Source of the DNA: Rhodanobacter sp. DHG33
GTDB lineage: Bacteria; Pseudomonadota; Gammaproteobacteria; Xanthomonadales; Rhodanobacteraceae
DNA: 64,000 nucleotides
Assembly: GCF_014843005.1 (NCBI RefSeq)
Contig: NZ_JACYXM010000001.1
Location: 62,001-126,000, forward strand
Reading direction: 5' to 3'
Shown: positions 45,965 through 63,638 of the stretch, piece by piece
Layout of the letters: each line of letters begins with the position of its first letter
Numbering within the stretch: position 1 is the first letter of the stretch
Notes under the pieces: model-generated
What the model saw: the letters and a program-made list of their open reading frames with translations, nothing else
Told to the model about the DNA's origin: nothing
Database searches by the model: none
Made by a program: the position numbers and the translations under genes

Positions 45965-45966
45965 CG

Positions 45967-47004: not shown

Positions 47005-47074
47005 TTGCGTCCTACTTTGGAGGGACAAGCCTCAACCATAACAACTCTACAGCGCCAAGCCGTCGCTTCAACCT

Positions 47075-48241
47075 TCAAGGGCGTAGACCGCGGCACCGCG
47101 ACGACGCTAGCACACGGTCATAAATCTCGAGTGTCTTATCCGCAATGTTTTCAGGCGAAAACTCGGCGGCCAAATTACGTGCAGCGTGTCCGATCCGTTG
47201 TCGCAGCTCGGGTGAATCAATGAGCCGCCCAATCCGCTCGGCCATCGCCTCACTATCTTCAACGGGGACCACAAAGCCGGACTCACCATCCACGACATAC
47301 CGCGCCACATCGCCTACATCGGTGGACACAACCGGTTTTGCCATCGCCATGGCTTCCCACAACGACATGCCCCAACTTTCCGAAAGCGAGGCACATACAT
47401 AGACATCAACACGTTTCAGAATGGGACGTACATCTGCCCGCCCACCCAAAAAGCATATGTCATTTAGCCCAACCTGATCCGCAAGCACTTTCAGATGATC
47501 TGCATAATGCCTCTGGCGCTGAAACACGGGACCTATTACAACGACACGCACAAAGCGCCCACTATTATTTAGCAACGCAGCTGCACGAATAATTGTTTCA
47601 ATGCCCTTTACAGGATTTACATTTCCTATCGTACCAATGACGAAGCCGTCGCCAAACAAGTCAGCCGGCTCTTCATCAACACACGGTGGCGATTCCGGAT
47701 CGTACTCGTGAATGTCAACTGGTGGCTGCACTATGGCAGAAGGTCGATTGTTGGTCACGTACCTGCCATAGTATTCCTTCACTCTTTGTCCAGTATAAAT
47801 AAATCCAGCCGCTAAAGGCTGGACAGCTCGAAATAGCCAGCGTATCCACCCTGGCATGAGCGTATCGTTCAAATGCCATACACACGGTATGCCGGCTAGT
47901 TGTGACGCAATGACGGCCTTTATCTGCCAACTACCACCAGACGCATGAACCAGGTCAATTCGTTCACACCGAAAAAGTCGCGCAAGTTTGATTACCTCAC
48001 TCGGAAATAACGCCACATATGCAATTGCGACTCGCCATTCCCGAGTAATGCGGGTGAGAGCAATTACACGACAGGGGATGCCGAGTGCCACACATTTTTC
48101 ATAGAAAGCACCCGAATTATCTCTCGACATTACGACAAGTGTATCGACGCGCCCAATCAAGGCAGCAGCCACACGCATAATCCTTATCTGCGGGCCGCCC
48201 AGCTTGCCTTCTTCAATGACGTTAGCGACCCTTAACACCAC
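47075..48241 (-). CDS. GT4 glycosyltransferase
   Basis: A 388-residue retaining GT-B transferase. It has the N-terminal acceptor domain (ANVIEEGKLGGPQIRIMRVA), IGTIGNVNPVKGIETIIRAA and the nucleotide-binding E-x7-E segment ESWGMSLWEAMAMAKPVV. GTG at 48241 (or the next GTG) is the start, with GGAAGG upstream. Base composition is noticeably more AT-rich than in the flanking core genes. Sugar donor unknown. Confidence 0.88.
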   Translation of the reverse strand: MVLRVANVIEEGKLGGPQIRIMRVAAALIGRVDTLVVMSRDNSGAFYEKCVALGIPCRVIALTRITREWRVAIAYVALFPSEVIKLARLFRCERIDLVHASGGSWQIKAVIASQLAGIPCVWHLNDTLMPGWIRWLFRAVQPLAAGFIYTGQRVKEYYGRYVTNNRPSAIVQPPVDIHEYDPESPPCVDEEPADLFGDGFVIGTIGNVNPVKGIETIIRAAALLNNSGRFVRVVVIGPVFQRQRHYADHLKVLADQVGLNDICFLGGRADVRPILKRVDVYVCASLSESWGMSLWEAMAMAKPVVSTDVGDVARYVVDGESGFVVPVEDSEAMAERIGRLIDSPELRQRIGHAARNLAAEFSPENIADKTLEIYDRVLASSRCRGLRP

Positions 48242-49202: not shown

Positions 49203-49385
49203 TTTGTTTACACTCCTCAGTGTTAGCACGCAAGACAGTACACCAGTCATGTTTGACGCTAGCCACACCATATCATGAGAAAGTCATCGCCTGGTTAAGA
49301 CTCCGCCCGAAGTGCAAGCTGACGTAGCACAGACAGAACTATCGATCGCCACTCTCCCATGATTCACTTTATGTTAGTTGTTGTT

Positions 49386-50510
49386 TCACTCTTTCCAAGG
49401 CGGTTCGGGCTTACCCGATTTACCTTCTGCATGCGACAGAATCGCAAGTAGATATCGAGCACCCTCATCACTACCCAAAGACCGAGCCCAGTTTGCAAGC
49501 GTCAATCGCTCTGCATATTTGGGTGGCCCTAACGAAATTTGCCGAGACAGTAAACCTACAAGGCCGTGGATATCGCCATTACGGAACACCCCACCAACCC
49601 CACTCGCCAGCACAGCTTCACTCGCACCACAAGTGTCACTACAAATAACCGGTGTGCCAGCCATCAAGGCTTCCGATACTACTGCTCCCCAGCCATCGTG
49701 GCGGCTAGGGAGCACTAGGCAGTCGGCGGCAGCCATACTTTGCCGCGCCAACTCACCGTACAACCGTCCAGCCCACTGAAGCCTGTTGCCAAGGCATCGT
49801 TCAGCATGCGCCCGAAGATCGATGTCAAGGGGCCCATTACCTATGACCTGCAGCCGGGACTGACGAGCAAGCTGAGCCGGCAAAGCCGCCATTGCATCAA
49901 TTAACAGATCCAGACGTTTTCGATCAATGAATTGCCCTGCAAACAACACAGTGAAAGACTGTGTACTCTCTGTTTTTGGAGCAACCGTTTGCGAGCATGA
50001 ACTCGCGGGCTCCAAGAAATAAGCGAATGGGAAAATTTTGGCAACAAGTACGCCGCGTGCGCGCACCCAATCGGAAGTTCCTCGGCCAATTGCCAAAACT
50101 CCCGCCAATCGCCGCCTATTGCGATAAAACACACTGCGATACAATAGTTGTCGAGCGCCGCCTAGCAATCCGGCGTTATTCAGCGACTCCATCATTACCC
50201 AATATTGTAAACTCCGCCGCGCAAGCGCGGCTTGTGCAACACCAACAAGACCATTTCCCCGTATGCCCTGAACGAGATGGATTGCTTCGCCTGGCGCTTC
50301 GTTTGCCAGGCGCGCCATTGCGATGGCCGAATCAGCCAACCGAAGGTCGACGCCCGGTAGCTGCGGCACTTGCCAGCCCAATCGCGCCCGATCTTCACTC
50401 ATTTCTTGCGCCGCAACATAGGTCACCCGACAGCCCATACGTGCCAGCGCGATAGCAAGAGCTGCCATGTGCGGGCTAATCATGTTCTGCCAGAACCAGA
50501 TGTTCGTCAT
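49386..50510 (-). CDS. GT4 glycosyltransferase
   Basis: A 374-residue GT-B transferase with FTVLFAGQFIDRKRLDLLID and the donor-binding HDGWGAVVSEALMAGTPVIC. The ATG at 50510 overlaps the stop of the polymerase gene by four bases, so the two are coupled. It should act on the cytoplasmic side of the inner membrane in building the repeat unit. Donor sugar unknown. Confidence 0.87.
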   Translation of the reverse strand: MTNIWFWQNMISPHMAALAIALARMGCRVTYVAAQEMSEDRARLGWQVPQLPGVDLRLADSAIAMARLANEAPGEAIHLVQGIRGNGLVGVAQAALARRSLQYWVMMESLNNAGLLGGARQLLYRSVFYRNRRRLAGVLAIGRGTSDWVRARGVLVAKIFPFAYFLEPASSCSQTVAPKTESTQSFTVLFAGQFIDRKRLDLLIDAMAALPAQLARQSRLQVIGNGPLDIDLRAHAERCLGNRLQWAGRLYGELARQSMAAADCLVLPSRHDGWGAVVSEALMAGTPVICSDTCGASEAVLASGVGGVFRNGDIHGLVGLLSRQISLGPPKYAERLTLANWARSLGSDEGARYLLAILSHAEGKSGKPEPPWKE

Positions 50511-51874
50511 CCCGACGTCTCTTCCAAGAGCGGGAGTGGCACCGACGTCGCCCATGTAATGAGGATTAGAACCAACATGCCCATGCCACTGGGCGAAAAC
50601 AGCGTCGCTTCACCCATGTTTTCCAGGAGTGCAGTCATACACACCATCATGGCGATCATGCCTCCGCGTCGAACCGCTCTGCGTAACAGCATCCAAATCC
50701 AAACCAACACGGCTATCAATCCAAATATACCTAACTGCTCCCATGCCGCAATGTAGATATTTCCATTCTCTACTGGAGCACCGATTGGAAGACCAAATAG
50801 AGGGTCGCGCTGAATCACAAAGTCATCCGAGTCGGGATCAATGCCGAACCCAATTCCCTGGAAGGGCCTCTCAGCAATATTCGCCAACATCGGAATAATC
50901 AATTTGCCACGCGAATTGTCGTACACCTCATCCAAATTGGTGGTTGTACCTCGCTTGACAATATAGGTGTGTACTACCTTCCCTAGGAGCGGACCGGCAC
51001 CAATCGCTCCGATCAAAACCAGCACTACCGCCAATTGGATGCGCCTGTTGCGGAAGCCGGGAACAAAGTCCCCTCTGCGTCGGCGTGCAATCCACGGCCC
51101 CACGACCACCGAAACTATCAGCGCCAATATCAACGCAAGACCAGCGGTACGAGCTTGGGACAAAATGACCGAAATTACAGCAATGGAAAAAATTACCACA
51201 TTCGACGTAACAACTTTTCGTTCAGCCAGAATGCGTCCACCCGCCCACGCCGCTAACAAGCCAACCGTCAATCCGAAAGCTTGCGGTTGATTCAAAATCC
51301 CTTGGAAACCCGCTCCATTCTTCAGATATCCAAGTGTCGTGGGAAGCAAAGGCAGACTGACCAACATAAGCACTACCAAGCCACCAAATAGCTGGCGCTC
51401 GAGGCGCAACCGATCCTGGTAGCGGAGCCCCTCCCAGGCAGCCAATAATGTGCATACAGTTACAGTCCATGAAATCGCCTTTAATAAAGAAACGGCTGGC
51501 ATTTCGCTGAAGAACAATGAATGGACAATGATCCCACCACCTAAAAGCAGCGTTGCAAATACGCTACCGCGAATCATCGACGACTGTACGCCAGAAGATC
51601 GCATGCCAGCCATCACGACAGACAGCATAGCGCCGGCCTCGACCGCAAACCTGCCAACCGCCGCAACGTTCGGTTGAACAGCAATGCCGGGGCTCAGCAC
51701 GCTGAGGAGCCAGGACAACGCCAATGCCTGGATTGCTTGCGCGCGCCCGAGCATCGCATAAAGCGATAGCAAAAAGAGACTCAGCAACCCAGTCGCCGAC
51801 GAGGCAATGTAGCCGGCCAGGACCAGAAGCACCACGCACGCCTCAACGAGGTTCTTTGTCCGTCTAGTGAACAT
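50507..51874 (-). CDS. O-antigen polymerase/ligase-family membrane protein (Wzy-like)
   Basis: A 455-residue protein with ten or more helices and a large periplasmic loop (about residues 310-370, HTYIVKRGTTTNLDEVYDNS onward) containing the FQGIGFGIDPDSD segment. The SQARTAGLALILA and NSRGKLIIPML motifs fit the Wzy/WaaL fold. In this locus it is the only candidate polymerase. The ATG at 51874 follows GGGAGCGGGG. The gene before it is a decayed acetyltransferase whose end it overlaps. Confidence 0.85.
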   Translation of the reverse strand: MFTRRTKNLVEACVVLLVLAGYIASSATGLLSLFLLSLYAMLGRAQAIQALALSWLLSVLSPGIAVQPNVAAVGRFAVEAGAMLSVVMAGMRSSGVQSSMIRGSVFATLLLGGGIIVHSLFFSEMPAVSLLKAISWTVTVCTLLAAWEGLRYQDRLRLERQLFGGLVVLMLVSLPLLPTTLGYLKNGAGFQGILNQPQAFGLTVGLLAAWAGGRILAERKVVTSNVVIFSIAVISVILSQARTAGLALILALIVSVVVGPWIARRRRGDFVPGFRNRRIQLAVVLVLIGAIGAGPLLGKVVHTYIVKRGTTTNLDEVYDNSRGKLIIPMLANIAERPFQGIGFGIDPDSDDFVIQRDPLFGLPIGAPVENGNIYIAAWEQLGIFGLIAVLVWIWMLLRRAVRRGGMIAMMVCMTALLENMGEATLFSPSGMGMLVLILITWATSVPLPLLEETSG

Positions 51875-52283
51875 TTGCTGCCCCGCTCCCGCCCATGTGA
51901 AGTGCCCTGATTGCACACTCTCTCACTTCTTCTACGCCTCCCTGGATGGTGGCGCAGACGTCGGCCCAAGCTCCAACACTCCTGATAGGTATGGAATAAC
52001 CCGGTCTGACAGTTACCTTGCACCCTCCTCCTCGCATCTGGGTGCCGGCAATTAGGCTCACGCAGGGAGCAGTATCGGCATCATCGCCAATACGAACGGC
52101 GGCATCACCGCCAGCCACAAGCACTTCATGATCAATCCATAGTCCGAGCCCGATCTCCAGACCTCCGGCCAACCAGAAACGCGCACTTGAAGCAGCAAGT
52201 ACACGGTCGCCCACCGGTGCTCGTGCCCAGCGCAGCAATGAACGCCTCACGGCAAACAACCGTGTGGGCGGCAACAACGGCAC
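51864..52283 (-). pseudogene. Decayed hexapeptide acetyltransferase
   Basis: The reading frame matches the intact acetyltransferase at 56294-56815 through LLPPTR-FA, LLRWA, SSARFWL-G-LEIG-G-WI and HEVLVAGG. However, the catalytic His is Gln (GTQ for GTH), the last coils of the beta-helix are scrambled and the end is missing. The start codon region is out of frame with the counterpart. It directly follows the wzx gene, just as the intact copy follows a wzx remnant. It is most likely non-functional. Confidence 0.8.
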
Positions 52284-52316: not shown

Positions 52317-53570
52317 CTATGCCTCCCGGAAAACACGAAAAATAGTCATCATCAGCATGACTGCACCTGCACACGCGTATGCAACCAGCGCCCACTCCAC
52401 ACTCCGGTGCGAACTAGGCAACAGTATTCCAAGAAGAACGAGCAGCCACACAACGGTGATGATCAGCCATGACATGTGTCGGCCGCGCCCAACCAAAGCG
52501 TTGCCCAAGGCGTTCGCTGGGGAATTGATTACGCCCACCCCCAAGAAACAGGCAACAACCAGCGTATCTCCTGCATACCGGCTGCCATAGAGCAGAATCA
52601 GCTTGGACGCAAACAAAAATCCCAATGCCGCAATACTGAGCGACATCGCAGCATTAATTGTCCCGACCCATTTCAGGAGCCGACGTAGACCCTCGTGTGT
52701 CTCACGCACCATGCGCGAGAACGTGACTCTGGTCATTTGGTTTGGTAGCAACAAGCCCAGAGCGAGCCATTGCATGCCAATAGTGAAAACCGCGAATTGT
52801 TTGTCGCCCGCGCTTGCCATGATCAGCCGGCCCACCACCCAGGTCGCCGAGCCGCTGATCAGCGAAACTGCGAACATTGCGCCGACAAGGGAACCCAGTT
52901 CATGCAGGCTTTGCTTGTCCCAGCGAATGGATGCCTTGAGGCGCTCCCAACCAGTCTGATGAACGGTAATCGCAGTGGTACCGGCGAGATGCAAACCGAA
53001 TGCCGCAACAATCGCCCACATGCCAATGGTGGGATTGCGAGTGGCCGCGGCCCATCCAGTAAGCGCCAGCAGACACACAGCCGACCCAATGGAGACAATG
53101 GCCGACGACCGGAAAGCCTCAAGCCCCACGATGGCGCCACCAATCACCGCATCAAGCACACAGACCGCCACACCCACGCTAATGGCAAGGATTGGGATAT
53201 CACGTCCGGCAGTAAGCCAGCCCAGTGGTGCAATGCTGAGGATCATGAAGGCAGCGACAGCCACTACGACATTGACGCACAGCAGTGTGCCGAGCGGGAA
53301 GGCTCCCGTACCATCGTCGTTGCGTGAGGCAGCGAAGAAGCGTGAAGCAGCAACGGCCAAGCCCATGGTCGCATAGGTAGCCAGCATGTTGACCGTCATC
53401 TGGAAATAGGAATAAGTCGCAAAATCCCTGGTTGCAAACGATCTCGCTAGCAAGATCGTAGCGAGTGCAAGACTCCCTCGCTGTGCAAGGTGGTTGACAA
53501 GAGACCATATCGCATTGGCCGCGAGTAACCGGCGGCTCACGGAGTCACCGCCGCTTGTCCACTGCAGCAT
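52317..53570 (-). CDS. Wzx-type polysaccharide flippase
   Basis: A 417-residue integral membrane protein with about twelve helices, of the MATE/MVF-like polysaccharide transporter family (LAQRGSLALATILLARSF near the N-terminus). It would flip undecaprenyl-linked repeat units for Wzy. The start is uncertain: ATG at 53570 is preceded not by a ribosome binding site but by a run of nine Cs on the coding strand (53582-53574). Longer in-frame starts exist at 53663 and 53681, and a GTG lies inside. The slippery tract could allow phase variation. Confidence 0.85.
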   Translation of the reverse strand: MLQWTSGGDSVSRRLLAANAIWSLVNHLAQRGSLALATILLARSFATRDFATYSYFQMTVNMLATYATMGLAVAASRFFAASRNDDGTGAFPLGTLLCVNVVVAVAAFMILSIAPLGWLTAGRDIPILAISVGVAVCVLDAVIGGAIVGLEAFRSSAIVSIGSAVCLLALTGWAAATRNPTIGMWAIVAAFGLHLAGTTAITVHQTGWERLKASIRWDKQSLHELGSLVGAMFAVSLISGSATWVVGRLIMASAGDKQFAVFTIGMQWLALGLLLPNQMTRVTFSRMVRETHEGLRRLLKWVGTINAAMSLSIAALGFLFASKLILLYGSRYAGDTLVVACFLGVGVINSPANALGNALVGRGRHMSWLIITVVWLLVLLGILLPSSHRSVEWALVAYACAGAVMLMMTIFRVFREA

Positions 53571-53797
53571 CGCGGGGGGGGGCAGACCGATAGATAGGGC
53601 ATATATATCAAAGGCAATGCAGGAGGCCGAGGTGAAGTACCCACGAAGGTCGGGAGTCGCCATACGCGGCCATGACGACATTCACCGTGCGACCGCGCAT
53701 GTTGCTATTGGGATGCTGTCCGTTAATTACGCAAACACGGGCATGCCCCCCCATGAGCTAGCCTTCGTTCATCACAAACCCACTGCAGACGCAGTCA

Positions 53798-54946
53798 TTA
53801 ACTCCATTTCACGCGCGGCATGATTCTGCCAGCCACGATCCGATCCTTGTTTTCCATGACCCGTTTCAACATTGCGGTGATGACATCATCGGTCATGTAG
53901 TGTGGCTTCAGACCCAGCTCCATCAAACCTGAGTGGGCCGGATTGTAGTAGTGGTTTTCCTTTTCCTTGCGAGGGTTTGGGATGGACTTGATGGTGACAT
54001 TCAGCCCCATTTCATCGCCCACCTTCTTGATACGATCCGCCGCCTGATTGACGCTGAAGGTTTCCGTCAGTTGATTGAAAATGCGCAACTCACCCCTCTT
54101 GGCGGGGTTGCTTGCTGCCAGGCCAACACATTGCAAGGTGTCCCGCAAGTTCAAATAACCGCGGATCTGGCCACCAGCGCCATACACCGTCAGCGGAATA
54201 CCCGCCACGGCCTGCACGAGGAAGCGGTTGACAAGAGTGCCAAAGATGTCGTCGTAATGGAAATTGGGGCACAGCCGCGGATCGAGGTCGGCTTCATCGG
54301 TGGACAAGCCATAGACTGGTCCCTGCATGAGGTCGGTCACGCGCAACCCGAAGGTACGCACGTAGAACCACAACAGGTCGGTATCCATCACCTTGGTGGT
54401 GTGGTACAGCGAACCGGCCGCACGCGGAAACAGGAAGGTGTCCTTACGCCCCTTGTGTTCGACTTCCAGCCAACCTTCCTCGATGTCGATGTTGGGCGTG
54501 CCGTATTCGCCCATGGTGCCCAACTTGACGATATGACAATCGGGCACGATGTCCTTGACTGCGTGGATGCAGTTGAAGGTGACGTTGAGGTTATTGTTGA
54601 AGGTTTCACGCGCTTCCCTGAAACCACGCATGGAGTACGGCGCGGACGGCTGTTCGGCGTAGTGGATGATGGTTTCCGGCCCGAATTCGCGCACGATGTC
54701 GAACATTACACCCGGGTCAGCGAGATCGGCGATGTGGACCTTGATGGTGTGACCGGATACGGCATGGAAGACACGCGCGCGTTCCGAAAGGCTGGGCGTG
54801 GCGATGAGCGCCTCACTGTCGGTGGCTTCGGCGATTTGGCGACGAAGATAATTGTCCACTACGCACACTTCGTGGCCGGCGGCCGCAAAGTTCATGGCCG
54901 TGGGCCAGCCTAGATAGCCGTCGCCGCCCAGAATCAGTACACGCAT
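53798..54946 (-). CDS. sqdB: UDP-sulfoquinovose synthase-like protein (SqdB/SQD1)
   Basis: A 382-residue extended SDR protein closely resembling SQD1/SqdB, which makes UDP-sulfoquinovose from UDP-glucose and sulfite. The NAD site is ILGGDGYLGWPTA. Further diagnostic segments are EQPSAPYSMR, KLGTMGEYGTPNIDIEEG, and NPAHSGLMELGLKPHY near the C-terminus. Thr144, Tyr181 and Lys185 correspond to the catalytic residues of plant SQD1, one position earlier. Sulfolipid genes (sqdC, sqdD, sqdX) are absent, and the setting is a polysaccharide locus. An APS-reductase-type gene lies 3 kb upstream in the same direction. Confidence 0.88.
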   Translation of the reverse strand: MRVLILGGDGYLGWPTAMNFAAAGHEVCVVDNYLRRQIAEATDSEALIATPSLSERARVFHAVSGHTIKVHIADLADPGVMFDIVREFGPETIIHYAEQPSAPYSMRGFREARETFNNNLNVTFNCIHAVKDIVPDCHIVKLGTMGEYGTPNIDIEEGWLEVEHKGRKDTFLFPRAAGSLYHTTKVMDTDLLWFYVRTFGLRVTDLMQGPVYGLSTDEADLDPRLCPNFHYDDIFGTLVNRFLVQAVAGIPLTVYGAGGQIRGYLNLRDTLQCVGLAASNPAKRGELRIFNQLTETFSVNQAADRIKKVGDEMGLNVTIKSIPNPRKEKENHYYNPAHSGLMELGLKPHYMTDDVITAMLKRVMENKDRIVAGRIMPRVKWS

Positions 54947-54948
54947 GT

Positions 54949-55956
54949 TTATTCCTTGCTCGCTGTAGAGTGGTAGTAGGTGTCAAGAAAATACCGCACG
55001 GTGCGCCGCAGCCCGTCGTGCAGCGATACCTGTGGCGTCCAGGCCAGTCGTTGCCGCGCCTTGGTGGTGTCCGAATAATTGCGGGCCACGTCACCTTGTC
55101 GTATGGGACCATGGTACACGTCCGGTACGTGCATACCTTCAGAGCGCATAGCCTTGATGAGCTGCTCCGTCATCTCCGCCACGGTGGTTTCCGCGGCTGT
55201 GGCGATCTGAAACGTCTCGCCACCGATGCCGGGGGTCAGCGCCGCACTGCGGATGGCGAGGATGAGATCGGCGATGTAAATGAAATCCCGAGTCTGGCTG
55301 CCATCACCGTAGATTTCAAGCCGCTGGCCGGACATGGCTTCCTTGATGAATTTGGCGACGACGGAGCCTTTGTGCCCGGAGCCTTCGCCATAGACATTGC
55401 CGAAACGCAGCGTGACGGTTTCCACGCCATAGCAGTGGTAATACGCGGAACAGTAGCCCTCACCGGCGAGTTTGGATGCACCGTAGGGCGAGGCTGGGTG
55501 CGGCGCCATTTCTTCGTGCAGCGGCGGGGCCTGTACACCCAATGGCGCACCGGACGATGCCATCACGAAACGTGGCGGTTCGCCAGCAGCACGACAGGCC
55601 TCCAGCATGTTGACGACACCCAACACGTTAGTATGGCAATCCTTGACGGGATCGGCCACCGACTGCGGTACGCCGGTGTTCGCGGCAAGGTGGATGACGA
55701 CATCCGCTCCGATGATGGCCTCAGCGATCGCTGCCGGATCGAGGATGTCGCCCACCTTTAGCGCCAAGGGTTGCGACCAATCATGGAAGTTGGCCGTGTT
55801 ATCCAACTCGACGAACGGAGCGACCACGGCAAGGTCTTCGCGCGTACCGGTGGAAAGATTGTCCAGCACGCGAATGGACTGATCGCCTTCGGCCAGCAAA
55901 TCGGCGATGAGGGCGCGGCCAATGAAGCCACAACCACCAGTGACAAGCCAGTTCAT
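54949..55956 (-). CDS. NAD-dependent epimerase (GalE/WbpP-like)
   Basis: A 335-residue SDR sugar-nucleotide epimerase with LVTGGCGFIGRALIADLL, LAANTGVPQSVADPV, SPYGASKLAGEGY (Tyr-x3-Lys) and LRFGNVYGEGSGHKGSV. C4 epimerisation of a UDP-hexose is likely. It lies two bases upstream of the sqdB-like gene on the same strand, so the two enzymes may act on connected nucleotide sugars; an action on UDP-sulfoquinovose is possible but unproven. Confidence 0.87.
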   Translation of the reverse strand: MNWLVTGGCGFIGRALIADLLAEGDQSIRVLDNLSTGTREDLAVVAPFVELDNTANFHDWSQPLALKVGDILDPAAIAEAIIGADVVIHLAANTGVPQSVADPVKDCHTNVLGVVNMLEACRAAGEPPRFVMASSGAPLGVQAPPLHEEMAPHPASPYGASKLAGEGYCSAYYHCYGVETVTLRFGNVYGEGSGHKGSVVAKFIKEAMSGQRLEIYGDGSQTRDFIYIADLILAIRSAALTPGIGGETFQIATAAETTVAEMTEQLIKAMRSEGMHVPDVYHGPIRQGDVARNYSDTTKARQRLAWTPQVSLHDGLRRTVRYFLDTYYHSTASKE

Positions 55957-56129
55957 GATCGATCCCTTTTCAACAGCACCTCTTCACATGTCCACTCCAT
56001 GGCGGACATGTACCAACTCATTCCAAAGTACCCAAGCAGGCGTCGACTGCAAACGGCCGCGGATCAATTGTTGGTGTACCGCCGCTTCCACGCACGGGGC
56101 CTAGGTTACTTTTGGCTGCGGTTGCCGCA

Positions 56130-56287
56130 CGTCTTTGTTGGACATCTCCATCGTATGGATACTCGTTTAATTCAGTATGATGTTGCTGAATTCGTACCCG
56201 AGCGTCGAATGGATATTAGTCCCGTATGCAGCTGCGGGTACTGCCATGCTCTGCCTAACCGCTCTCCGCGTTTCCAGAAGGTGTGAT
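56130..56287 (+). pseudogene. Remnant of the 3' end of a wzx flippase gene
   Basis: The plus strand here aligns with the last codons of the flippase at 52317-53570. SVEWILVPYAAAGTAMLCLT matches SVEWALVAYACAGAVMLMMT, the sequence before it matches at nucleotide level with small indels, and the stop codon is at the same place. No reading frame for the rest of a flippase exists. It precedes the intact acetyltransferase and so preserves, in inverted orientation, the wzx-acetyltransferase order of 53-52 kb. The rest of the 337-base gap from 55957 holds no gene. Confidence 0.75.
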
Positions 56288-56293
56288 TCATCA

Positions 56294-56815
56294 ATGCACG
56301 CAGGCCGTCTCTATGTATATAACCAACTCACTATGCTGTTGCCGCCGACGCGATTTTTTGCACTAAAACGGTTATTGCTGCGTTGGGCAGGCGCCACCGT
56401 GGCTGACAATGTACGCATTGTATCGAGCGCTAGGTTCTGGTTAACGGGAGCACTGGAGATCGGTTCCGGAGCGTGGATCGGTCACGAGGTGCTTGTAGCT
56501 GGCGGCGGTGCTGCGGTGTACATAGGCAAAGATGTAGATATTGCACCACGTGTAAGCCTCATCACAGGCACGCACTCGCTTGGTGGGCTTGGCGAGAAAG
56601 CAGCCGGTTCCGGTTATTCGCTACCGATTGTCGTTGGTGATGGCGCGTGGATCGGAGCCGGCGCAACAGTGTTGGGAGGCGTAACTGTGGGTGAATCCTG
56701 CGTCGTCGCTGCCGGCGCTCTAGTGCGCCGGGATGTCCCGCCAAAGGTCATCGTGGGTGGCGTCCCGGCGGTGGAGCTTCGCGGACACAACCATGAGGCA
56801 CCACGTGATCTCTAA
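56294..56815 (+). CDS. Hexapeptide-repeat O-acetyltransferase
   Basis: A 173-residue left-handed beta-helix acyltransferase of the WcaF/NodL type, probably acetylating a sugar of the polysaccharide using acetyl-CoA. The catalytic His94 is in LITGTHSLGG, and the hexapeptide coils end with VIVGGVPAVEL. The start is ATG at 56294, or 56333 (MLLPPTRFF). It lies on the plus strand against the other genes of this part and overlaps the end of the next gene (56812) by four bases, convergently. A decayed homologue is at 51864-52283. Confidence 0.88.
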   Translation: MHAGRLYVYNQLTMLLPPTRFFALKRLLLRWAGATVADNVRIVSSARFWLTGALEIGSGAWIGHEVLVAGGGAAVYIGKDVDIAPRVSLITGTHSLGGLGEKAAGSGYSLPIVVGDGAWIGAGATVLGGVTVGESCVVAAGALVRRDVPPKVIVGGVPAVELRGHNHEAPRDL

Positions 56816-57912
56816 CTCGCCGCATTCTCTTCTTTGTCTCCAGGCCAGTATCGCTGCGGTGCATCGGCCATCATCTGGATGTCCAGCAAACCGTCGCCGC
56901 GCAACAGATTGACGAGATCTTGCCTCTGCATAAGAGGCTCCGCAGCCGACACATACGGGTTGGTCACCTTGTCGGACACGACATTGGGATATTCGTATGA
57001 GACTGTCCGATACACGCCACGGTAGGCCGGCAGAACCGCAAAATAGCGATCCAACTCGACAGCGCGGCGGGTTTCTTCATCGCTCATCAATTCCTCGTAC
57101 AACTTTTCACCCGGCTTGCTGCCGATTTCCGTGATCTCGATGGCTTTGGGATCCTCGCCGAAGCGCGGAGCAAGCTCCTCGATCATTACCTCCGCCAAGT
57201 CCTTGATACGGATGACCGGCATCTTGGTGATGAAGACTTCGCCACCCCGTCCGAGCAACGCCGACTCGATGACAAGCCGAACCGCATCGCGCGTGTTCAT
57301 GACGAAACGCGTCATGCGCGGATCGGTCAACGTCACCGGCCCCCCGCGGGCGATCTGGTTGGCGAACACCGGAACGACAGACCCCTGCGACCCCAACACA
57401 TTGCCAAAACGCGTAGCGACAAACACCGGGCCGCCTTCGCTCGTCTGGCTGTTGGCTGCCGTGATCAGGCGCTCGCCCATAAGCTTGGAGGTGCCCATGA
57501 CGCTGGTCGGGTTCACGGCTTTGTCGGTGCTCATCTGCACCATGCGTTCAACGCCACCGTCGCGCGCGGCCTGGATAAGGTTCTGCACACCAAGAATGTT
57601 GGTCTGCACCGCATCCATGGGCGACCGCTCGCAAACGATCACGTGCTTGAGAGCTGCCGCGGAAAAGATCACGTCCGTGTTGCGTGCCAAGCGTGTCATG
57701 AGGGCGGCATCGCGCACGTCCCCAATGGTAAAGCGCGCCCGCGAGTCCGCCAGGTATTGTTGGTCGATGGAAAAAATGCCGGTCTCGTTATTGTCGACCC
57801 CCACCAATTGGCCGATGCCGTACTCCGGCTTGAGCAGCTCCGCGATCAGCGCGGAACCGACCGTACCGCACGCCCCCGTAACCAGGATCCGCTTGTTCTT
57901 AAGCTGGTACAT
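56812..57912 (-). CDS. CapD-family UDP-sugar 4,6-dehydratase
   Basis: A 366-residue soluble SDR dehydratase: ILVTGACGTVGSALIAELL, STDKAVNPTSVMGTSKLMGE (Met-x3-Lys) and ATRFGNVLGSQGSVVPVF. It lacks the membrane helices of WbpM. It should form a 4-keto-6-deoxy derivative of a UDP-HexNAc, or act as a retaining dehydratase/epimerase; no matching aminotransferase is in the window. The ATG at 57912 follows AAGGAG. It follows the APS reductase gene on the same strand. Confidence 0.87.
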   Translation of the reverse strand: MYQLKNKRILVTGACGTVGSALIAELLKPEYGIGQLVGVDNNETGIFSIDQQYLADSRARFTIGDVRDAALMTRLARNTDVIFSAAALKHVIVCERSPMDAVQTNILGVQNLIQAARDGGVERMVQMSTDKAVNPTSVMGTSKLMGERLITAANSQTSEGGPVFVATRFGNVLGSQGSVVPVFANQIARGGPVTLTDPRMTRFVMNTRDAVRLVIESALLGRGGEVFITKMPVIRIKDLAEVMIEELAPRFGEDPKAIEITEIGSKPGEKLYEELMSDEETRRAVELDRYFAVLPAYRGVYRTVSYEYPNVVSDKVTNPYVSAAEPLMQRQDLVNLLRGDGLLDIQMMADAPQRYWPGDKEENAAS

Positions 57913-58001
57913 CAAAAGCTCCTTCAGGAAATGGCTTGGTACGGCAGGAATCGTTGTGTTGGACTGCTTGTGAAGGCCATCGAACGTCACTCTGGACCGG
58001 A

Positions 58002-58721
58002 TCAATGGTCATCGTTTCGCATCAATCGCCCGGACTTGGGGTCAAAATGCAAGCCGCATTCTTTCAGTGATCCGCGCTCCCACCACCAGCGACCAGCACG
58101 TTCGTCCTCACCAGGCTTGACCGCGCGAGAACAGGGTGTGCAACCGACGCTCTTATAACCCTCATCCAGCAGTTTGTTGTAGGGAATGGACCGGGAGTGT
58201 ATGTACGCCCACACTTCCTGCGCAGTCCAATCCGCCATCGGATTAAACTTATACAGATTATAGTTGCTGTCCCATTGGCGCACTTCGATGGCCGCACGCG
58301 TAGGCGACTGCTCCTTGCGCAAGCCAGTCAGCAACGCTTTTTTACCGACGAGGAACCGCCTCAACGGCGACACCTTTCGGATGTTGCAGCACTGCTTTCG
58401 AAGTTCCACGTTCTGATAATACCCGTTGACCCCGTTACGTTGGACCCAGTCGCCGATCTCAGCAGCATCCGGGTACAAGACCTGTAGCACCGGTCCATAA
58501 CGCGAAAACACTGCCTGCATGAGACTATAGGTCTCTTTGGGCAAGCGACCCGTGTCAATCGTCACCACCTCGATATTCAATTTGTGCTCGACGATCAAGT
58601 CGAGCATCACCAGAGTCTCCGGGCCGAGCGCGCTCGACAAGGCTGATGGAAAGTAGTCGGTGCTTATCTGTGCCAGCAACGCCAACGTCTTATCCAAGTT
58701 GGTGGGCGCCGCCTTCTCCAT
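58002..58721 (-). CDS. Adenylylsulfate (APS) reductase-type protein, CysH family
   Basis: A 239-residue CysH-family reductase. Cys111-Cys112 (KQCCNIRK) and Cys194/Cys197 (VGCTPC) form the four-cysteine [4Fe-4S] pattern of APS-using enzymes, and the catalytic Cys222 is in ECGLH near the end. The Arg loop TGLRKEQSPTRA is also present. It reduces APS to sulfite and AMP with thioredoxin. CysH normally lies with cys genes; here it stands in a polysaccharide locus that also encodes a sulfite-using UDP-sulfoquinovose synthase. The ATG at 58721 lies inside an IS remnant frame. Confidence 0.88.
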   Translation of the reverse strand: MEKAAPTNLDKTLALLAQISTDYFPSALSSALGPETLVMLDLIVEHKLNIEVVTIDTGRLPKETYSLMQAVFSRYGPVLQVLYPDAAEIGDWVQRNGVNGYYQNVELRKQCCNIRKVSPLRRFLVGKKALLTGLRKEQSPTRAAIEVRQWDSNYNLYKFNPMADWTAQEVWAYIHSRSIPYNKLLDEGYKSVGCTPCSRAVKPGEDERAGRWWWERGSLKECGLHFDPKSGRLMRNDDH

Positions 58722-59066: not shown

Positions 59067-60347
59067 TCAAAGGCGGCCGTCAACTTCGCCCTTGGACAGG
59101 ATACCTTTGACGTCGTAAAGCACTGCGCGGTCACTGGCCAGTGCGCGTATACCGGCATTGCCTCCAGCCTTGAATTCATCATGCGCTACGGCGATCACCA
59201 CAGCATCGTAAGCATTCGGTTTCGGTGCGTGCGCCAACAAATCAAGACCATACTCAGTCTTGGCCTCGGCAGCATCGGCCCATGGATCGTAGATATCCAC
59301 CAGGGCACCAAAGCTTTCAAACTCCTTCACCAGATCCACAACGCGTGTGTTGCGTAGATCCGGGCAGTTTTCTTTGAAGGTCAGGCCCAGCACCAATACA
59401 TGACTGTTCTTGATGGCGTGACCTTTGCCGATCATCAGCTTCACCACTTCACTGGCAACGTGCCGCCCCATGCCGTCGTTGATGCGGCGACAAGCCAGCA
59501 GGATGTCGGGATAGTAGCCCACGGCCTGAGCTTTCTGTATCAGGTAGTAAGGATCCACGCCGATGCAGTGTCCCCCGACCAGGCCTGGCTGGAACGGCAG
59601 GAAGTTCCACTTGGTGCTAGCAGCCGCCAACACGTCCTGGGTATCGATGCCGAGGCGATGGAAGATCAATGCAAACTCGTTGATGAGAGCGATATTCGCA
59701 TCGCGCTGGGTGTTCTCGATGACCTTGGCCGCCTCGGCCACTTTCAGGCTGGTCGCCTTGTGGGTGCCGGCAGTGATGATGGTGCGATACAGCGCGTCCA
59801 CATAATCGGCCGTCTCGAGAGTAGAGCCGGAAGTGATTTTCGGGATGTTGACAAGGCGGCGCTGTTTGTCGCCTGGATTGATCCGTTCAGGGCTGTAGCC
59901 CACGGTAAAATCGATGTTGAACCTCAACCCGGAGACACGCTCCAGTTCCGGCACACAGATTTCCTCGGTGGCACCGGGATAGACGGTAGATTCATAAATC
60001 ACGACACCACCACGCCTGAGCACCTTTCCGATGGACTGGCTTGCCTTGATCAGCGGGGTGAAATTAGGGCGTTTATGTTCGTCTACTGGAGTGGATACAG
60101 AGACGACGAATACATTGCAGTCGCGCAATACCTGCAAATCGTCTGAATACACGAGCCGACTCGATGCTGCGAGCTCCTCGGCGGACGTTTCCTGCGTATG
60201 GTCGATGCCGGCCCGCAGCTGCTCGATGCGCGCGACGCTGATATCGAATCCCACTGTATCGAAATGCTTACCGAACTCGACGGCCAGCGGCAGGCCCACG
60301 TAGCCCAGACCAATGATGGCGATCTTTGTATTGTTCAGTGAATGCAT
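59067..60347 (-). CDS. UDP-N-acetylhexosamine 6-dehydrogenase (TviB/WbpO/WbpA-like)
   Basis: A 426-residue nucleotide-sugar dehydrogenase with three domains: the NAD site IAIIGLGYVGLPLAVEFG, YESTVYPGATEEICVPELE, the catalytic Cys in GLVGGHCIGVDPYYL and the C-terminal LGLTFKENCPDLRNT. The Vi-antigen/WbpO type oxidises UDP-GlcNAc or UDP-GalNAc to the uronic acid. It would add an acidic sugar to the polymer. The ATG at 60347 has GGAAGC upstream. A small palindromic repeat separates it from wzc. Confidence 0.9.
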   Translation of the reverse strand: MHSLNNTKIAIIGLGYVGLPLAVEFGKHFDTVGFDISVARIEQLRAGIDHTQETSAEELAASSRLVYSDDLQVLRDCNVFVVSVSTPVDEHKRPNFTPLIKASQSIGKVLRRGGVVIYESTVYPGATEEICVPELERVSGLRFNIDFTVGYSPERINPGDKQRRLVNIPKITSGSTLETADYVDALYRTIITAGTHKATSLKVAEAAKVIENTQRDANIALINEFALIFHRLGIDTQDVLAAASTKWNFLPFQPGLVGGHCIGVDPYYLIQKAQAVGYYPDILLACRRINDGMGRHVASEVVKLMIGKGHAIKNSHVLVLGLTFKENCPDLRNTRVVDLVKEFESFGALVDIYDPWADAAEAKTEYGLDLLAHAPKPNAYDAVVIAVAHDEFKAGGNAGIRALASDRAVLYDVKGILSKGEVDGRL

Positions 60348-60415
60348 GTTGCTTCCAAAGCGCCCCTTCAACAGCAACTCTTCCGTTGCGTTAGGGTGAC
60401 GTTGAAGTAGTCGTC

Positions 60416-60512: not shown

Positions 60513-62717
60513 CTACTTGGCGGCCTTGTATTCGTAGTAACCATACGAGTAGTACCCTGCACTGCGCTTCTCAACGGCATTGAAGATGGCGCCCTTGATC
60601 TCCACGCCGTTTTGCTCGAAACGCTGCTTCGCCAAGGCGATTTCGCGAGCCTGATTGAGGCCGAAACGCACCACCAATAAGCTAGTACCAACGTGATGGC
60701 CGATCACGGCAGCATCGGTCACGGCGAGAATGGGTGGCGTGTCGATGATGACCAGGTCATAGAGCGGCGCCAGCTTCCGCAAAAGATCAGTGAAATTGGC
60801 ATGCATCAATAGTTCGGAGGGGTTGGGGGGCACCTTGCCGCGCGCAATGAAATGCATGGCTTCGACACCTTGCACCGTACGAATTGCAGTGGTCAGGTCA
60901 ATCTGGCCGGAAATCAGTTCAGACAAGCCACCTTCGGGTTTGCCGCCAAGCATCTTGTGCAAGCCCCCCTTGCGCATGTCTGCATCGATTACCAACACGC
61001 GCTGGCCAGCCTGGGCGATTACTGCACCCAAGTTTGACGAAACGAAGGTCTTGCCGGCATTTGGACTGGAGCCAGAAATCATAAGCAGATTGTTTTTCGC
61101 TTCCATCCTGGCGAAGTGCAGGCTGGTACGCAGGCTGCGCAAGGCCTCGGTGGCTAGGTCAGCCGGCGCACTGACCGCCAGTAGGTGCTGTTGGCCACGC
61201 CCCCCCTGACGCCGCGCCAGCTCGGTCCAAAATGCTTGCTCCTGTTCACTCATCGGAATCGAGGCATAGACTGGCAGACCGATTTGCTCGATGGCAGCTG
61301 GATCTTCTACACCGCGATTGAGCATTTGGCGCAGGAAGATGAAACATATCGCCAGGAAGCCACCCAGAAACGTGCCGCCAAGCACCACGATCGCCTTTTT
61401 CGGCTGCACCGGCTGAGTGATATCCACCGCTGCCGTATCGACGATACGTACGTTGCCTACGGTGCCCGCACGGGCAATATCCAGCTGCTGTGCCTGAGTG
61501 AGCAGGCCGGTATATGTCTGGTCACTCACCTGCACGTCGCGGGTCAACTTCAGCAACTGCTGTTGAGTATCCGGCAGTTCTCCGACCTGCTTGTCCAGGG
61601 CGTCTTTCTGCGCCTGCAACAGGTCAATCTGCTGCTGCATAGCCTTATACGCAGGGTGCGCAGAGGTGAACCGACGCTCAATGTCAGCCTGTTGTATCTG
61701 CAATTGCTGGATGCTGGTCTCGGCCGCCACCTCCTGATCGAGCAGCGCTTTGGTCTGCATGGTGATGTCGACCGAATGTGCTTTGATCTGGTAGGCGTTC
61801 AGCGCATCTGTGGCGTGATCCAGTTCCTGACGCACGCTGGGCAGTCGTTCCTTGACGAATTTCAGGCTATTGGCTGCCTCGGCCGAATTGCGATCGACAT
61901 TCTGCTTTACGTAAAAGTGGCTTACCTGATCAAGCAGATTGACTGCCAGAGCGGGATCGATGTTGTCGTAGGTCAGGCCGATGATGCCGGAATCTTTGCC
62001 TTGCTCGGATGCCTGGATATCCTGCTGCAACTGGTTGATGATAGTCAGGTCGCGATGACGAACCACATCGAAACGTTCGTCCGGGTTGGCCGCCAGCGCC
62101 TTCACTTCGATGGTCACGCCATGCCCACTGGCAGCTTGCCCTACCTGACCATTGAGCAGAGTGTCGCCATCATCATCTTGCAGCGTGTACGCGCCGTGCT
62201 CGCCCGCGATCAGGGTCAATCGCTTGTCTAGCAGCGCATTGGGCACATCGAGACGAAAGATATCCAGTCGAGCGCCACCCCAGTCATAGCGAGCTAGCCC
62301 GAGGATGGGTGGAGCCACGGCACCCGGCTTGTCCGGGGTGTAATGGCGCGCGATGAAGCTGCCGAACAGCGGGAGCCGCCGCGGACTGGCTTCGATCAGC
62401 ATGTGGAGGCTGTCCACCGCCTGACCGATGACCGTTCGCGAGGTGATCAGTGCGATTTCGGTGGTGGCTTCGGAGTTGGAAGCACCCAGGGTTTGGGTAA
62501 TCGCGCTGAGACCTGGCAGGTCGGGGACTTTCTGTTCAACCTGCACCACCGCGCTGGCTTGGTAGACCGGCGTGGACAAGAGGGCATAGGCCAAGCTGAA
62601 CATTAAGAAGCAGGAAGTAACAGCGACGATCAACCACTTGTGGTCGAGAACCGTGCCCAACAAGGCATTGAGGTCGATTTCATCGTCTCGAGATGAGGTG
62701 TGCGGCTCAGCTGCCAT
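60513..62717 (-). CDS. wzc: Polysaccharide co-polymerase / tyrosine autokinase (Wzc-like)
   Basis: A 734-residue inner-membrane protein controlling polymer length and export. It has an N-terminal helix (about 28-50) and Wzz domain, a periplasmic coiled-coil (about 270-400), a second helix (about 438-458) and a cytoplasmic BY-kinase. The kinase has Walker A GSSPNAGKTFVSSNLG, A' VLVIDADMRKG and B LVIIDTPPI. The C-terminal tyrosine cluster is YYSYGYYEYKAAK. Its phosphatase partner is encoded immediately upstream. Together with Wzx and Wzy this marks a Wzy-dependent pathway. Confidence 0.95.
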   Translation of the reverse strand: MAAEPHTSSRDDEIDLNALLGTVLDHKWLIVAVTSCFLMFSLAYALLSTPVYQASAVVQVEQKVPDLPGLSAITQTLGASNSEATTEIALITSRTVIGQAVDSLHMLIEASPRRLPLFGSFIARHYTPDKPGAVAPPILGLARYDWGGARLDIFRLDVPNALLDKRLTLIAGEHGAYTLQDDDGDTLLNGQVGQAASGHGVTIEVKALAANPDERFDVVRHRDLTIINQLQQDIQASEQGKDSGIIGLTYDNIDPALAVNLLDQVSHFYVKQNVDRNSAEAANSLKFVKERLPSVRQELDHATDALNAYQIKAHSVDITMQTKALLDQEVAAETSIQQLQIQQADIERRFTSAHPAYKAMQQQIDLLQAQKDALDKQVGELPDTQQQLLKLTRDVQVSDQTYTGLLTQAQQLDIARAGTVGNVRIVDTAAVDITQPVQPKKAIVVLGGTFLGGFLAICFIFLRQMLNRGVEDPAAIEQIGLPVYASIPMSEQEQAFWTELARRQGGRGQQHLLAVSAPADLATEALRSLRTSLHFARMEAKNNLLMISGSSPNAGKTFVSSNLGAVIAQAGQRVLVIDADMRKGGLHKMLGGKPEGGLSELISGQIDLTTAIRTVQGVEAMHFIARGKVPPNPSELLMHANFTDLLRKLAPLYDLVIIDTPPILAVTDAAVIGHHVGTSLLVVRFGLNQAREIALAKQRFEQNGVEIKGAIFNAVEKRSAGYYSYGYYEYKAAK

Positions 62718-62782: not shown

Positions 62783-63220
62783 CTATCGCAGATAAGGAAG
62801 CCAACTGCGCACACCGCGATCGATCATTGCATAGACGTGTTCGAACGCTGGACGCTGTTGCCGATACGGATCCGGGATATCCCGCGCCTCGCACCACTTG
62901 TCGAACAGAAACAGCTTGCCGCTGGCTTCGGGTGCCAGGCGCGCCAAAGCAAGCAAATGGCTCTTTTCCATGCCAAGAACCAAATCGGCCTCGCGCAGCA
63001 GGGCTGGCGTGACCTGTCGTGCACGATGCACGGAACTGTCCACACCGTGCTCGTCCATCAACTGAGCGGCCGTGCCCTCTACGGGCGAGTTCACCATGGC
63101 AGCCAGCCCGGCGCTACCCACCTGGATGCCCCACGACGCAACTTGTTGCCGGAACAGGTATTCAGCAGTGGGGCTACGGCAAATATTGCCCACGCATACC
63201 GTCAAGATCCTTCCAAACAC
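62783..63220 (-). CDS. wzb: Low-molecular-weight protein tyrosine phosphatase (Wzb-like)
   Basis: A 145-residue phosphatase that should dephosphorylate the Wzc tyrosine tail. The P-loop CVGNICRSP and the DPYRQQ loop with the general-acid Asp are intact. GTG at 63220 is taken as start, with AGGAGA about ten bases upstream; no ATG fits. It is the first gene of the minus-strand locus, 65 bases before wzc. A wza outer-membrane channel gene is not in the window. Confidence 0.92.
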   Translation of the reverse strand: MFGRILTVCVGNICRSPTAEYLFRQQVASWGIQVGSAGLAAMVNSPVEGTAAQLMDEHGVDSSVHRARQVTPALLREADLVLGMEKSHLLALARLAPEASGKLFLFDKWCEARDIPDPYRQQRPAFEHVYAMIDRGVRSWLPYLR

Positions 63221-63638
63221 AGTGACTGGATTCTCCTGTTTCCTCGCCTGTGCGCTGCGATGGCGACACATGACCCACGATCGTCTCTCAGTTGCCGAGC
63301 GCCCCGTCCAATGGTGTGGCTAGGCTGCTTTGGTTCGCCCCTCGAACACGCTATGGTTCCAGACAATCCAGGAACCCAGGCGCCAGGGGTAGAGTACGCA
63401 ACAAGCCGGGGAGCTGGCAAACCGATGTTGTAGGTTCGTTAATAAAGTCCTTAGAAATGTTTGGTCTTACAAGCAATCTTTTGGCCCCTAAGTCCTTTGG
63501 CCCTCCTTAAAGTTGCCGTCCTGCGAGGCAAGAAATGCGGATAACTCTCATCGGTCAAAGACTTAACAACCACTGGGTTCACAGCTGCGGGTTTTTGTGG
63601 TTACAATCGTAAGGCCAAACGCAGGGAGTTCCTCTACC
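63221..63638. promoter_or_regulatory. Divergent, AT-rich regulatory spacer at the head of the locus
   Basis: This 418-base gap lies between wzb (leftward) and the small secreted gene (rightward). On the plus strand TTCACA (63578) and TACAAT (63602-63607), 18 bases apart, form a good sigma-70-type promoter for the small gene. The leftward promoter of the polysaccharide operon must also lie here but could not be pinpointed. Confidence 0.6.

Follow-up and report, generated by a model that had tools for sequence, protein, structure and literature searches.

In the accessible portion of a 2026 review (PMC12890257), sulfoquinovose is placed in sulfolipids and in archaeal N-glycans. According to the accessible part of PMC4388408, Agl3 from Sulfolobus by itself converts uridine diphosphate (UDP)-glucose and sulfite, releases UDP-Glc-5,6-ene when sulfite is lacking, and has an essential Arg101 (the R101A mutant is inactive). 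For sulfofucose, no biosynthetic pathway had been identified according to the part seen of a 2025 paper (PMC12421959). Further papers (PMC10991766, PMC10315480, PMC12555021, PMC9549778, PMC7922415) have as topics, from what is accessible of them, sulfoquinovose breakdown, sulfolipid genes, a pathway list and archaeal S-layer glycans. In this mostly open-access literature, represented mainly by titles and abstract openings, no work was found that connects SqdB and CysH with a bacterial surface polysaccharide. Here we describe such a combination from Rhodanobacter sp. DHG33. It is encoded in a stretch of 64,000 nucleotides (contig NZ_JACYXM010000001.1, positions 62,001 to 126,000), which is referred to as the window. 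A polysaccharide locus in the window contains a cassette with an SqdB-clade enzyme, a PF02719 dehydratase and a CysH-type reductase. On balance, we consider it probable that a sugar nucleotide sulfonated at C6 is made by this locus for its polymer. Candidates for the product are sulfoquinovose, sulfofucose and a sulfonated 6-deoxy-hexosamine. The cassette consists of the following genes:

53798..54946, minus strand: SqdB-clade enzyme, an SQD1-like short-chain dehydrogenase/reductase (SDR) for nucleoside diphosphate sugars, with the catalytic Thr/Tyr/Lys (T/Y/K) kept and Arg101 replaced by Pro
54949..55956, minus strand: GalE-like SDR with SSGAPLG and YGASK, ending 2 bp before the sqdB start
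56177..56815, plus strand (opposite strand): hexapeptide O-acetyltransferase, within the cassette, outside the conserved set
56812..58005, minus strand: PF02719 dehydratase, Pen/CapD/PglF-like, with STDK..M..K, the usual partner of the SqdB clade
58002..58721, minus strand: CysH-type reductase for adenosine phosphosulfate (APS) or phosphoadenosine phosphosulfate (PAPS), with CC and CxxC (4Fe-4S type), the proposed sulfite source

The 382-residue SqdB-clade protein matches the NCBIfam model for UDP-sulfoquinovose synthase end to end (E 7.9e-134) but, with 446 bits, stays below the equivalog cut-off of NF041015 (575 bits). This cut-off is strict, since a classical-clade paralogue, the second SqdB-like protein of the host genome, reaches only 342 bits. 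The closest solved structure by sequence is Arabidopsis SQD1 (residues 2-381). A model computed with AlphaFold2 superposes on 1qrr (SQD1) with a template modelling score of 0.92 at 47% identity; its mean predicted local distance difference test score is 83.4, with low confidence for segment 147-158 beside the active site. Homology and fold are thus of the SQD1 type over the full length, and GGDGYLG, TMGEYGTPN and T/Y/K are all present, so that the SQD1/SqdB-type assignment made in the initial annotation of this DNA is retained. The coordinates and strands it gave for the sqdB-like and cysH-like genes were confirmed as well, and chance does not explain matches as strong as those of the two proteins.

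To obtain related loci, genome contigs were scanned once; of the 542 relatives found, the best 80 were kept (65-81% identity). These come from Alpha-, Gamma- and Deltaproteobacteria, Chloroflexi, Bacteroidota, Nitrospinota, Acidobacteria and others; cultured carriers such as Arhodomonas aquaeolei, Salibaculum griseiflavum and Parahaliea maris are among them. The comparison covers 81 loci, made up of the window, L023 and 79 relatives from the set of 80 (L033 and L023 come from one organism). Gene calls were heuristic and yielded no SqdB gene in L064, L089, L096 and L104, so that 77 sequences were compared. In all 77, the residues T145, M146, G147, E148, Y149, Y182, H183 and K186 (SQD1 chain numbering) are conserved; this includes both the catalytic T145/Y182/K186 and the dehydration pair E148/Y149. 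V211 is replaced by Pro in 77/77 and N208 by Met in at least 95%; by alignment, these two changes and that of Arg101 to Pro fall in or near the sugar pocket. Homologues at about 51-52% identity share Pro101, some of them together with the changes at 208 and 211 and some not, and are without the dehydratase. In a tree with weak deep support, the clade is closer to SQD1 than to the S. meliloti SqdB group; two sequences with 51% identity fall inside the clade, and the second SqdB of the host falls into the S. meliloti group. We do not class the window protein as an SQD1 orthologue, though it should act like one. The second SqdB-like gene of the host genome (L012:9954-11135(+), G000:C38) is itself found in a polysaccharide-type locus, with a UDP-galactopyranose mutase (above the model cut-off) and glycosyltransferases (annotated by reading). 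In a plasmid collection, 22 records have SqdB relatives, all below 60% identity (best 48%).

The dehydratase gene, which the initial annotation did not mention, is here the key partner. Its likely start is the ATG at 57912, 89 bp past the cysH stop. The protein has the PF02719 domain and the D-K..K catalytic residues and falls short of the cut-offs for named enzymes (PseB, 253 of 407.75 bits; FnlA, 211 of 730 bits). Among solved structures, 6bwc (Pen of B. thuringiensis) is the nearest to it both in sequence and in fold. Pen and Pal are reportedly successive dehydratases, as stated in the title of one paper. The accessible part of PMC8987622 lists Pen as a UDP-N-acetylglucosamine (GlcNAc) 5,6-dehydratase, and in a table gives Met at one position as the signature of PglF/WbpM. 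At this position, where Pen has Tyr, the dehydratase has Met, as do 63 of the 64 cassette copies.

In 70 of 80 loci, a relative of the dehydratase (at least 40% identity) is encoded no more than 3.5 kb from SqdB; among the 60 loci that extend at least 1.5 kb to both sides, 54 have such a neighbour. The pairing also holds for whole genomes. In a class sample of 369 genomes, SqdB homologues (E 1e-60) occur in 29: 12 have 59-81% identity (the window's own, 100%), 4 have 51% and 13 have 37-44%. The dehydratase (E 1e-75) occurs in exactly the 12 genomes with a clade SqdB (Fisher P 9e-23). In a phylum sample of 398 genomes, 11 have SqdB (E 1e-90), and 9 of these 11 also have the dehydratase (E 1e-68), which was found in no other genome of the sample (P 9e-17). 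The two SqdB genomes without dehydratase have a 62% homologue (genome 78% complete) and a 52% homologue, respectively. Neither sample (369 and 398 genomes) contains the dehydratase without the SqdB clade. At 19 loci with classical-type SqdB and 4 loci with a 51% homologue, several of them short, no dehydratase was found (40% identity, within 3.5 kb). The two samples overlap partly, and the locus set overlaps with the genome samples for at least three organisms (L136/L094, L137/L055, L138/L106). The whole-genome searches scored the best 4-5 candidates per genome, so that a weak second copy could escape.

Clustering of the 1077 predicted genes from the 81 loci revealed companions mainly of polysaccharide type (most names were assigned by reading). 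Besides SqdB, the dehydratase, the GalE-like protein and CysH, no gene cluster is present in more than 14 of the 81 loci, which fits a portable sugar-nucleotide module. A glycosyltransferase common to all loci was sought and not found at the clustering threshold used. Because the two enzymes are paired without a widely shared glycosyltransferase cluster, the data argue that SqdB and the dehydratase serve one sugar nucleotide, not a fixed disaccharide.

The 239-residue protein encoded by 58002-58721 matches PF01507 (E 1.9e-41) and is above the curated CysH cut-offs of PRK02090 (245 bits versus 154) and TIGR00434. It is just below the cut-off for APS reductase (TIGR02055, 233.7 versus 235.3) and well below that for PAPS reductase (TIGR02057, 147 versus 254). 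The closest solved structure is 2goy, an adenosine phosphosulfate reductase, which we take to be that of P. aeruginosa. The motifs CCNIRK, CTPC and ECGLH provide the 4Fe-4S ligands and the catalytic residues; the CysH family, both Cys pairs and the shared orientation with sqdB are as initially annotated. The host genome has three PF01507 matches: CysD, a housekeeping CysH and the window CysH. The housekeeping CysH adjoins CysJ and CysI, with CysK nearby; it is above the PAPS-reductase cut-off and has neither Cys pair. The locus CysH is thus a second reductase, of a different type from the housekeeping copy. This settles a check proposed in the initial annotation (a second cysH in a cys operon elsewhere) and removes its concern that the window gene might be the only cysH in the genome.

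A reductase-type PF01507 open reading frame (ORF) with an ECG[IL]H tail is found in 20 of the 81 loci, each time on the sqdB strand (20/20) and at a distance of at most 3.1 kb in 19 cases (8.4 kb in the other). Both Cys pairs are present in 16 of these 20. The PF01507 proteins from L086 and L106 are divergent and lack the Cys pairs, which leaves 18 firmer CysH loci, with L066 and L097 being partial. Across 47 whole genomes (201 Mb), there are 91 PF01507 matches, and the SqdB loci of these genomes hold 18 reductase-type and 6 CysD-type genes, where 0.40 would be expected by chance. (The ORF from L097 is outside the PF01507 matches of this count, hence 18 here.) For the 18 reductase-type genes, this is an approximately 45-fold enrichment (Poisson P 9e-24, relatedness of genomes ignored). 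Together with the strand bias, it excludes that sqdB and cysH are chance neighbours. A dedicated sulfite supply by the locus CysH is therefore supported, as the initial annotation had proposed; with CysH in a minority of loci, it is not universal.

In a rough tree with 25 sequences, the locus CysH proteins are spread over several lineages, and a single clade of sqdB-linked CysH was not found; this distribution points to repeated recruitment of CysH to SqdB loci. CysD and CysN are also found in some loci: CysD is confirmed by model in L077, L083 and L085 (in L056, L057 and L082 the basis is the PF01507 match alone), and CysN is confirmed in L066. In one member of the class sample, a single open frame of 683 residues (L156:610-2658(-)) encodes an entire CysH and, downstream of it, an entire classical-type SqdB. 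A CysH-SqdB arrangement in one frame, cut by the contig end, occurs in another genus of the same family (L180:1432-3216(+)); the two linkers look unrelated. An AGGAGA, which resembles a Shine-Dalgarno sequence, precedes the internal SqdB ATG in the CysH-SqdB frame, so that the two proteins might be made either as a fusion or by separate translation. The one-frame arrangement ties CysH to SqdB, but in the classical clade. Divergent PF01507-type proteins are encoded near the dehydratase at L086:8125-8943, L106:1361-2074, L138:11789-12502 and L140:11377-12204 (L138 is the same organism as L106). They keep ECG[IL]H, and their set of Cys pairs is incomplete (that from L140 has CC and no CxxC). The protein from L106 has no NCBIfam match at 1e-30. 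These proteins are possibly another kind of sulfur-nucleotide enzyme.

From the genes and motifs, their adjacency and co-occurrence, and the second, non-housekeeping CysH, we infer a pathway that covers the sulfosugar chemistry, the type of sugar and its presence in the polymer. CysH would release sulfite from APS or PAPS. The SqdB-clade enzyme would oxidize a UDP-hexose at C4 and eliminate water across C5-C6; it would then add sulfite at C6 and re-reduce C4. The Pen/CapD-like dehydratase would also contribute to this pathway, and in loci with a GalE-like enzyme, the latter would set C4. Glycosyltransferases would use the UDP-6-deoxy-6-sulfo-hexose to build the repeat unit, with export via Wzx/Wzy/Wzc.

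The GalE-like gene is a probable C4 epimerase. Its SSGAPLG block is unusual: SSxxVYG is the common form of that motif, and SSGAP[L/I/V/A]G is found in 28 of 38 GalE-like copies. The enzyme could yield the galacto form, sulfofucose. An epimeric product, which had been considered in the initial annotation, is possible but optional, as GalE-like relatives (at least 40% identity) are encoded within 3.5 kb of SqdB in only 34 of 80 loci.

Several observations weigh against a C6-sulfonated product. Arg101 is replaced by Pro in all 77 clade members and likewise at the 12 loci that represent the clade in the class sample. In the phylum sample, the SqdB from L174 (53% identity, with dehydratase) has TMGVYG and also Asn208, and that from L169 (62% identity, without dehydratase) lacks the TMGxYG pattern. 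The window's cassette is interrupted by the acetyltransferase gene, and in 10 of 80 loci no dehydratase is encoded within 3.5 kb of SqdB, in three of them despite 10 kb on both sides. CysH is near SqdB in only those 20 loci. In the class sample, it is near 4 of the 12 clade loci (two are divergent forms), and it is near none of 10 loci from the phylum sample. Compared with 2 of 19 loci in a control with classical SqdB, the 4 of 12 do not differ significantly (P 0.17), so that a CysH link specific to this SqdB clade is unsupported. In the genomes of L049, L068, L086 and L106, the local gene is the sole PF01507 match (E 1e-12), and there the locus CysH may also serve cysteine biosynthesis.

Two alternatives are special cases of a C6-sulfonated sugar nucleotide and leave room for other products. 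The first is plain sulfoquinovose, made from UDP-glucose and sulfite by SqdB alone, with the dehydratase providing an unrelated 6-deoxy-N-acetylhexosamine (HexNAc) for the same polymers. We consider this possible, though doubtful. It was the product named in the initial annotation, of which a sulfosugar-type enzyme with a second CysH in a Wzx/Wzy locus stands, and sulfoquinovose as such has become questionable in view of Pro101 and the dehydratase partner. SqdB acting alone, whether on sulfoquinovose or on another sulfonated hexose with the dehydratase in some linked role, is favoured because its dehydration residues are intact, E148/Y149 being invariant in 77/77 like the other SQD1 catalytic residues checked; its own dehydration looks possible, and Agl3 needs no partner. 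However, the conversion of UDP-glucose to UDP-sulfoquinovose does not call for a PF02719 dehydratase, and yet this enzyme and the SqdB clade occur in identical genome sets in the class sample. A conserved disaccharide, which might account for two separate sugars, is unlikely, as no glycosyltransferase cluster is widely shared, and the replacements of Arg101, N208 and V211 lie, by alignment, in the sugar pocket or its vicinity.

The second special case is a two-enzyme relay, which is rather unlikely as formulated here. The Pen-like dehydratase would convert UDP-GlcNAc to the 5,6-ene or the 4-keto compound, which SqdB would re-oxidize and sulfonate to yield UDP-6-sulfo-6-deoxy-HexNAc. A relay is favoured because of the close pairing of SqdB and dehydratase in loci and genomes, the resemblance to Pen, which is the best neighbour in sequence and structure, and the release of UDP-Glc-5,6-ene by Agl3 without sulfite. 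The retention of SqdB's own dehydration residues in all 77 sequences speaks against it, as does the Met in the dehydratase, which is that of PglF/WbpM. That the product of the dehydratase has no other taker is a weak argument: a rough motif screen of 31 long loci detected, in 26 of them, a DegT gene or a further SDR that could accept a 4-keto product, and only 5 have neither. As a tentative speculation, such a relay might operate across phyla, with a Pen-like dehydratase and an Arg101-less SqdB converting UDP-HexNAc via the 5,6-ene to UDP-6-sulfo-6-deoxy-hexosamine, with C4 epimers where a GalE-like enzyme is present and a dedicated CysH in some hosts, for use in sulfonated surface polysaccharides.

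It is improbable that the clade has lost the use of sulfite, with SqdB working as an epimerase or dehydratase on the way to an ordinary deoxy sugar and with CysH serving cysteine synthesis only: the invariant Pro in place of the Arg101 that Agl3 cannot lose, the three quarters of loci without a nearby CysH and the four genomes with a sole, local PF01507 match would agree with this, but the strong enrichment of reductase-type PF01507 genes from several CysH lineages, the CysD/CysN genes in some loci and the housekeeping CysH already present in the host do not.

The SqdB-clade enzyme is encoded in a polysaccharide locus. A Pfam scan showed Wzx-type, Wzy_C-type, Wzc, low-molecular-weight phosphatase (Wzb) and glycosyltransferase genes together, so that the neighbours named in the initial annotation are all present. 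The further features of the locus are:

43719..47028, minus strand: FnlA/FnlB/FnlC-like genes, UDP-L-N-acetylfucosamine (FucNAc) route; FnlA model below cut-off, FnlB-type above cut-off
47075..48241, minus strand: glycosyltransferase (PF00534), cluster c4, in 14 of 81 related loci
49386..50555, minus strand: glycosyltransferase (PF00534)
50507..51916, minus strand: Wzy-type polymerase/ligase (PF04932)
52317..53681, minus strand: Wzx-type flippase (PF01943)
59067..60377, minus strand: TviB-like UDP-HexNAc 6-dehydrogenase; TviB model just below cut-off
60513..62717, minus strand: Wzc tyrosine kinase/chain-length protein
62783..63271, minus strand: Wzb-type low-molecular-weight phosphatase

Judged from the FnlA/FnlB/FnlC-like genes, L-FucNAc may be a further component of the polymer. 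A 311-residue ORF of the locus (48336-49271, minus strand) has no Pfam match at E 0.001. The G+C fraction is 0.52-0.59 at 46-64 kb, compared with 0.65-0.72 across the first 40 kb of the window. Clade SqdB was found in none of 14 other genomes of the genus and none of 44 other genomes of the family that were searched; one of the 14 holds a relative with 40% identity. Because of the low G+C and the lack of the clade enzyme in these genomes, the locus was probably acquired. A degenerate, inverted second copy of the acetyltransferase gene is found at 51864-52283 (minus strand); it shares 70% DNA identity over 238 bases with the copy at 56177-56815 (plus strand). The start of the intact ORF resembles, by eye, the end of the Wzx protein. 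Because of the degenerate copy and this Wzx-end-like stretch, a segment was probably duplicated into the cassette in inverted orientation.

Among the companions of related loci, 11 of 81 loci encode a further SDR (cluster c6, e.g. L091:2866-3843(+)), whose gene mostly lies between those for CysH and the dehydratase. A sulfotransferase-domain cluster (c8, e.g. L083:19232-20050(+); its representative matches PF00685) is present in 9 of 81 loci, so that some related polymers may carry sulfate groups in addition to sulfonates. The host genome has eight PF00685 sulfotransferase matches, none of them within the window. With regard to the initial proposal of a polymer that needs no sulfotransferase, the window is without a PF00685 gene, but some related loci have one.

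A portable cassette in polysaccharide loci of many phyla would be a new source of organosulfonates. It would allow strongly acidic coats to be built without sulfotransferases, and it is a possible origin of rare sulfosugars that are eaten by other bacteria. With the close pairing to one dehydratase, an in vitro test is feasible with two or three proteins.

Compared with known systems, the window enzyme shares with SQD1 (Arabidopsis) and Agl3 the fold, the length, T/Y/K and the TMGEYGTP block. It differs from both by Arg101 to Pro, N208M and V211P, which are fixed or nearly so, by missing the NCBIfam cut-off and by its usual dehydratase partner. The setting is also different: a polysaccharide locus in place of the biosynthesis of sulfolipids or archaeal N-glycans. 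Classical proteobacterial SqdB (S. meliloti type) belongs to the same superfamily (36-42% identity in the control loci), and the two control loci noted above also have CysH adjoining or in the same frame. It represents, however, another clade, in which Arg101 is kept, TMGVYG prevails and no PF02719 dehydratase is nearby in the 19 control loci. The dehydratase has the PF02719 fold of Pen, CapE/WbjB and PglF, with Pen as the top match, but differs from the Pen group by STDK..M..K with its PglF-like Met and by occurring, in both samples, only with the SqdB clade. The window CysH resembles assimilatory APS reductases of the 2goy type (PF01507, CC, CxxC, ECGLH). Unlike these, it is encoded in a polysaccharide locus, in a host whose housekeeping CysH is of the PAPS-reductase type.

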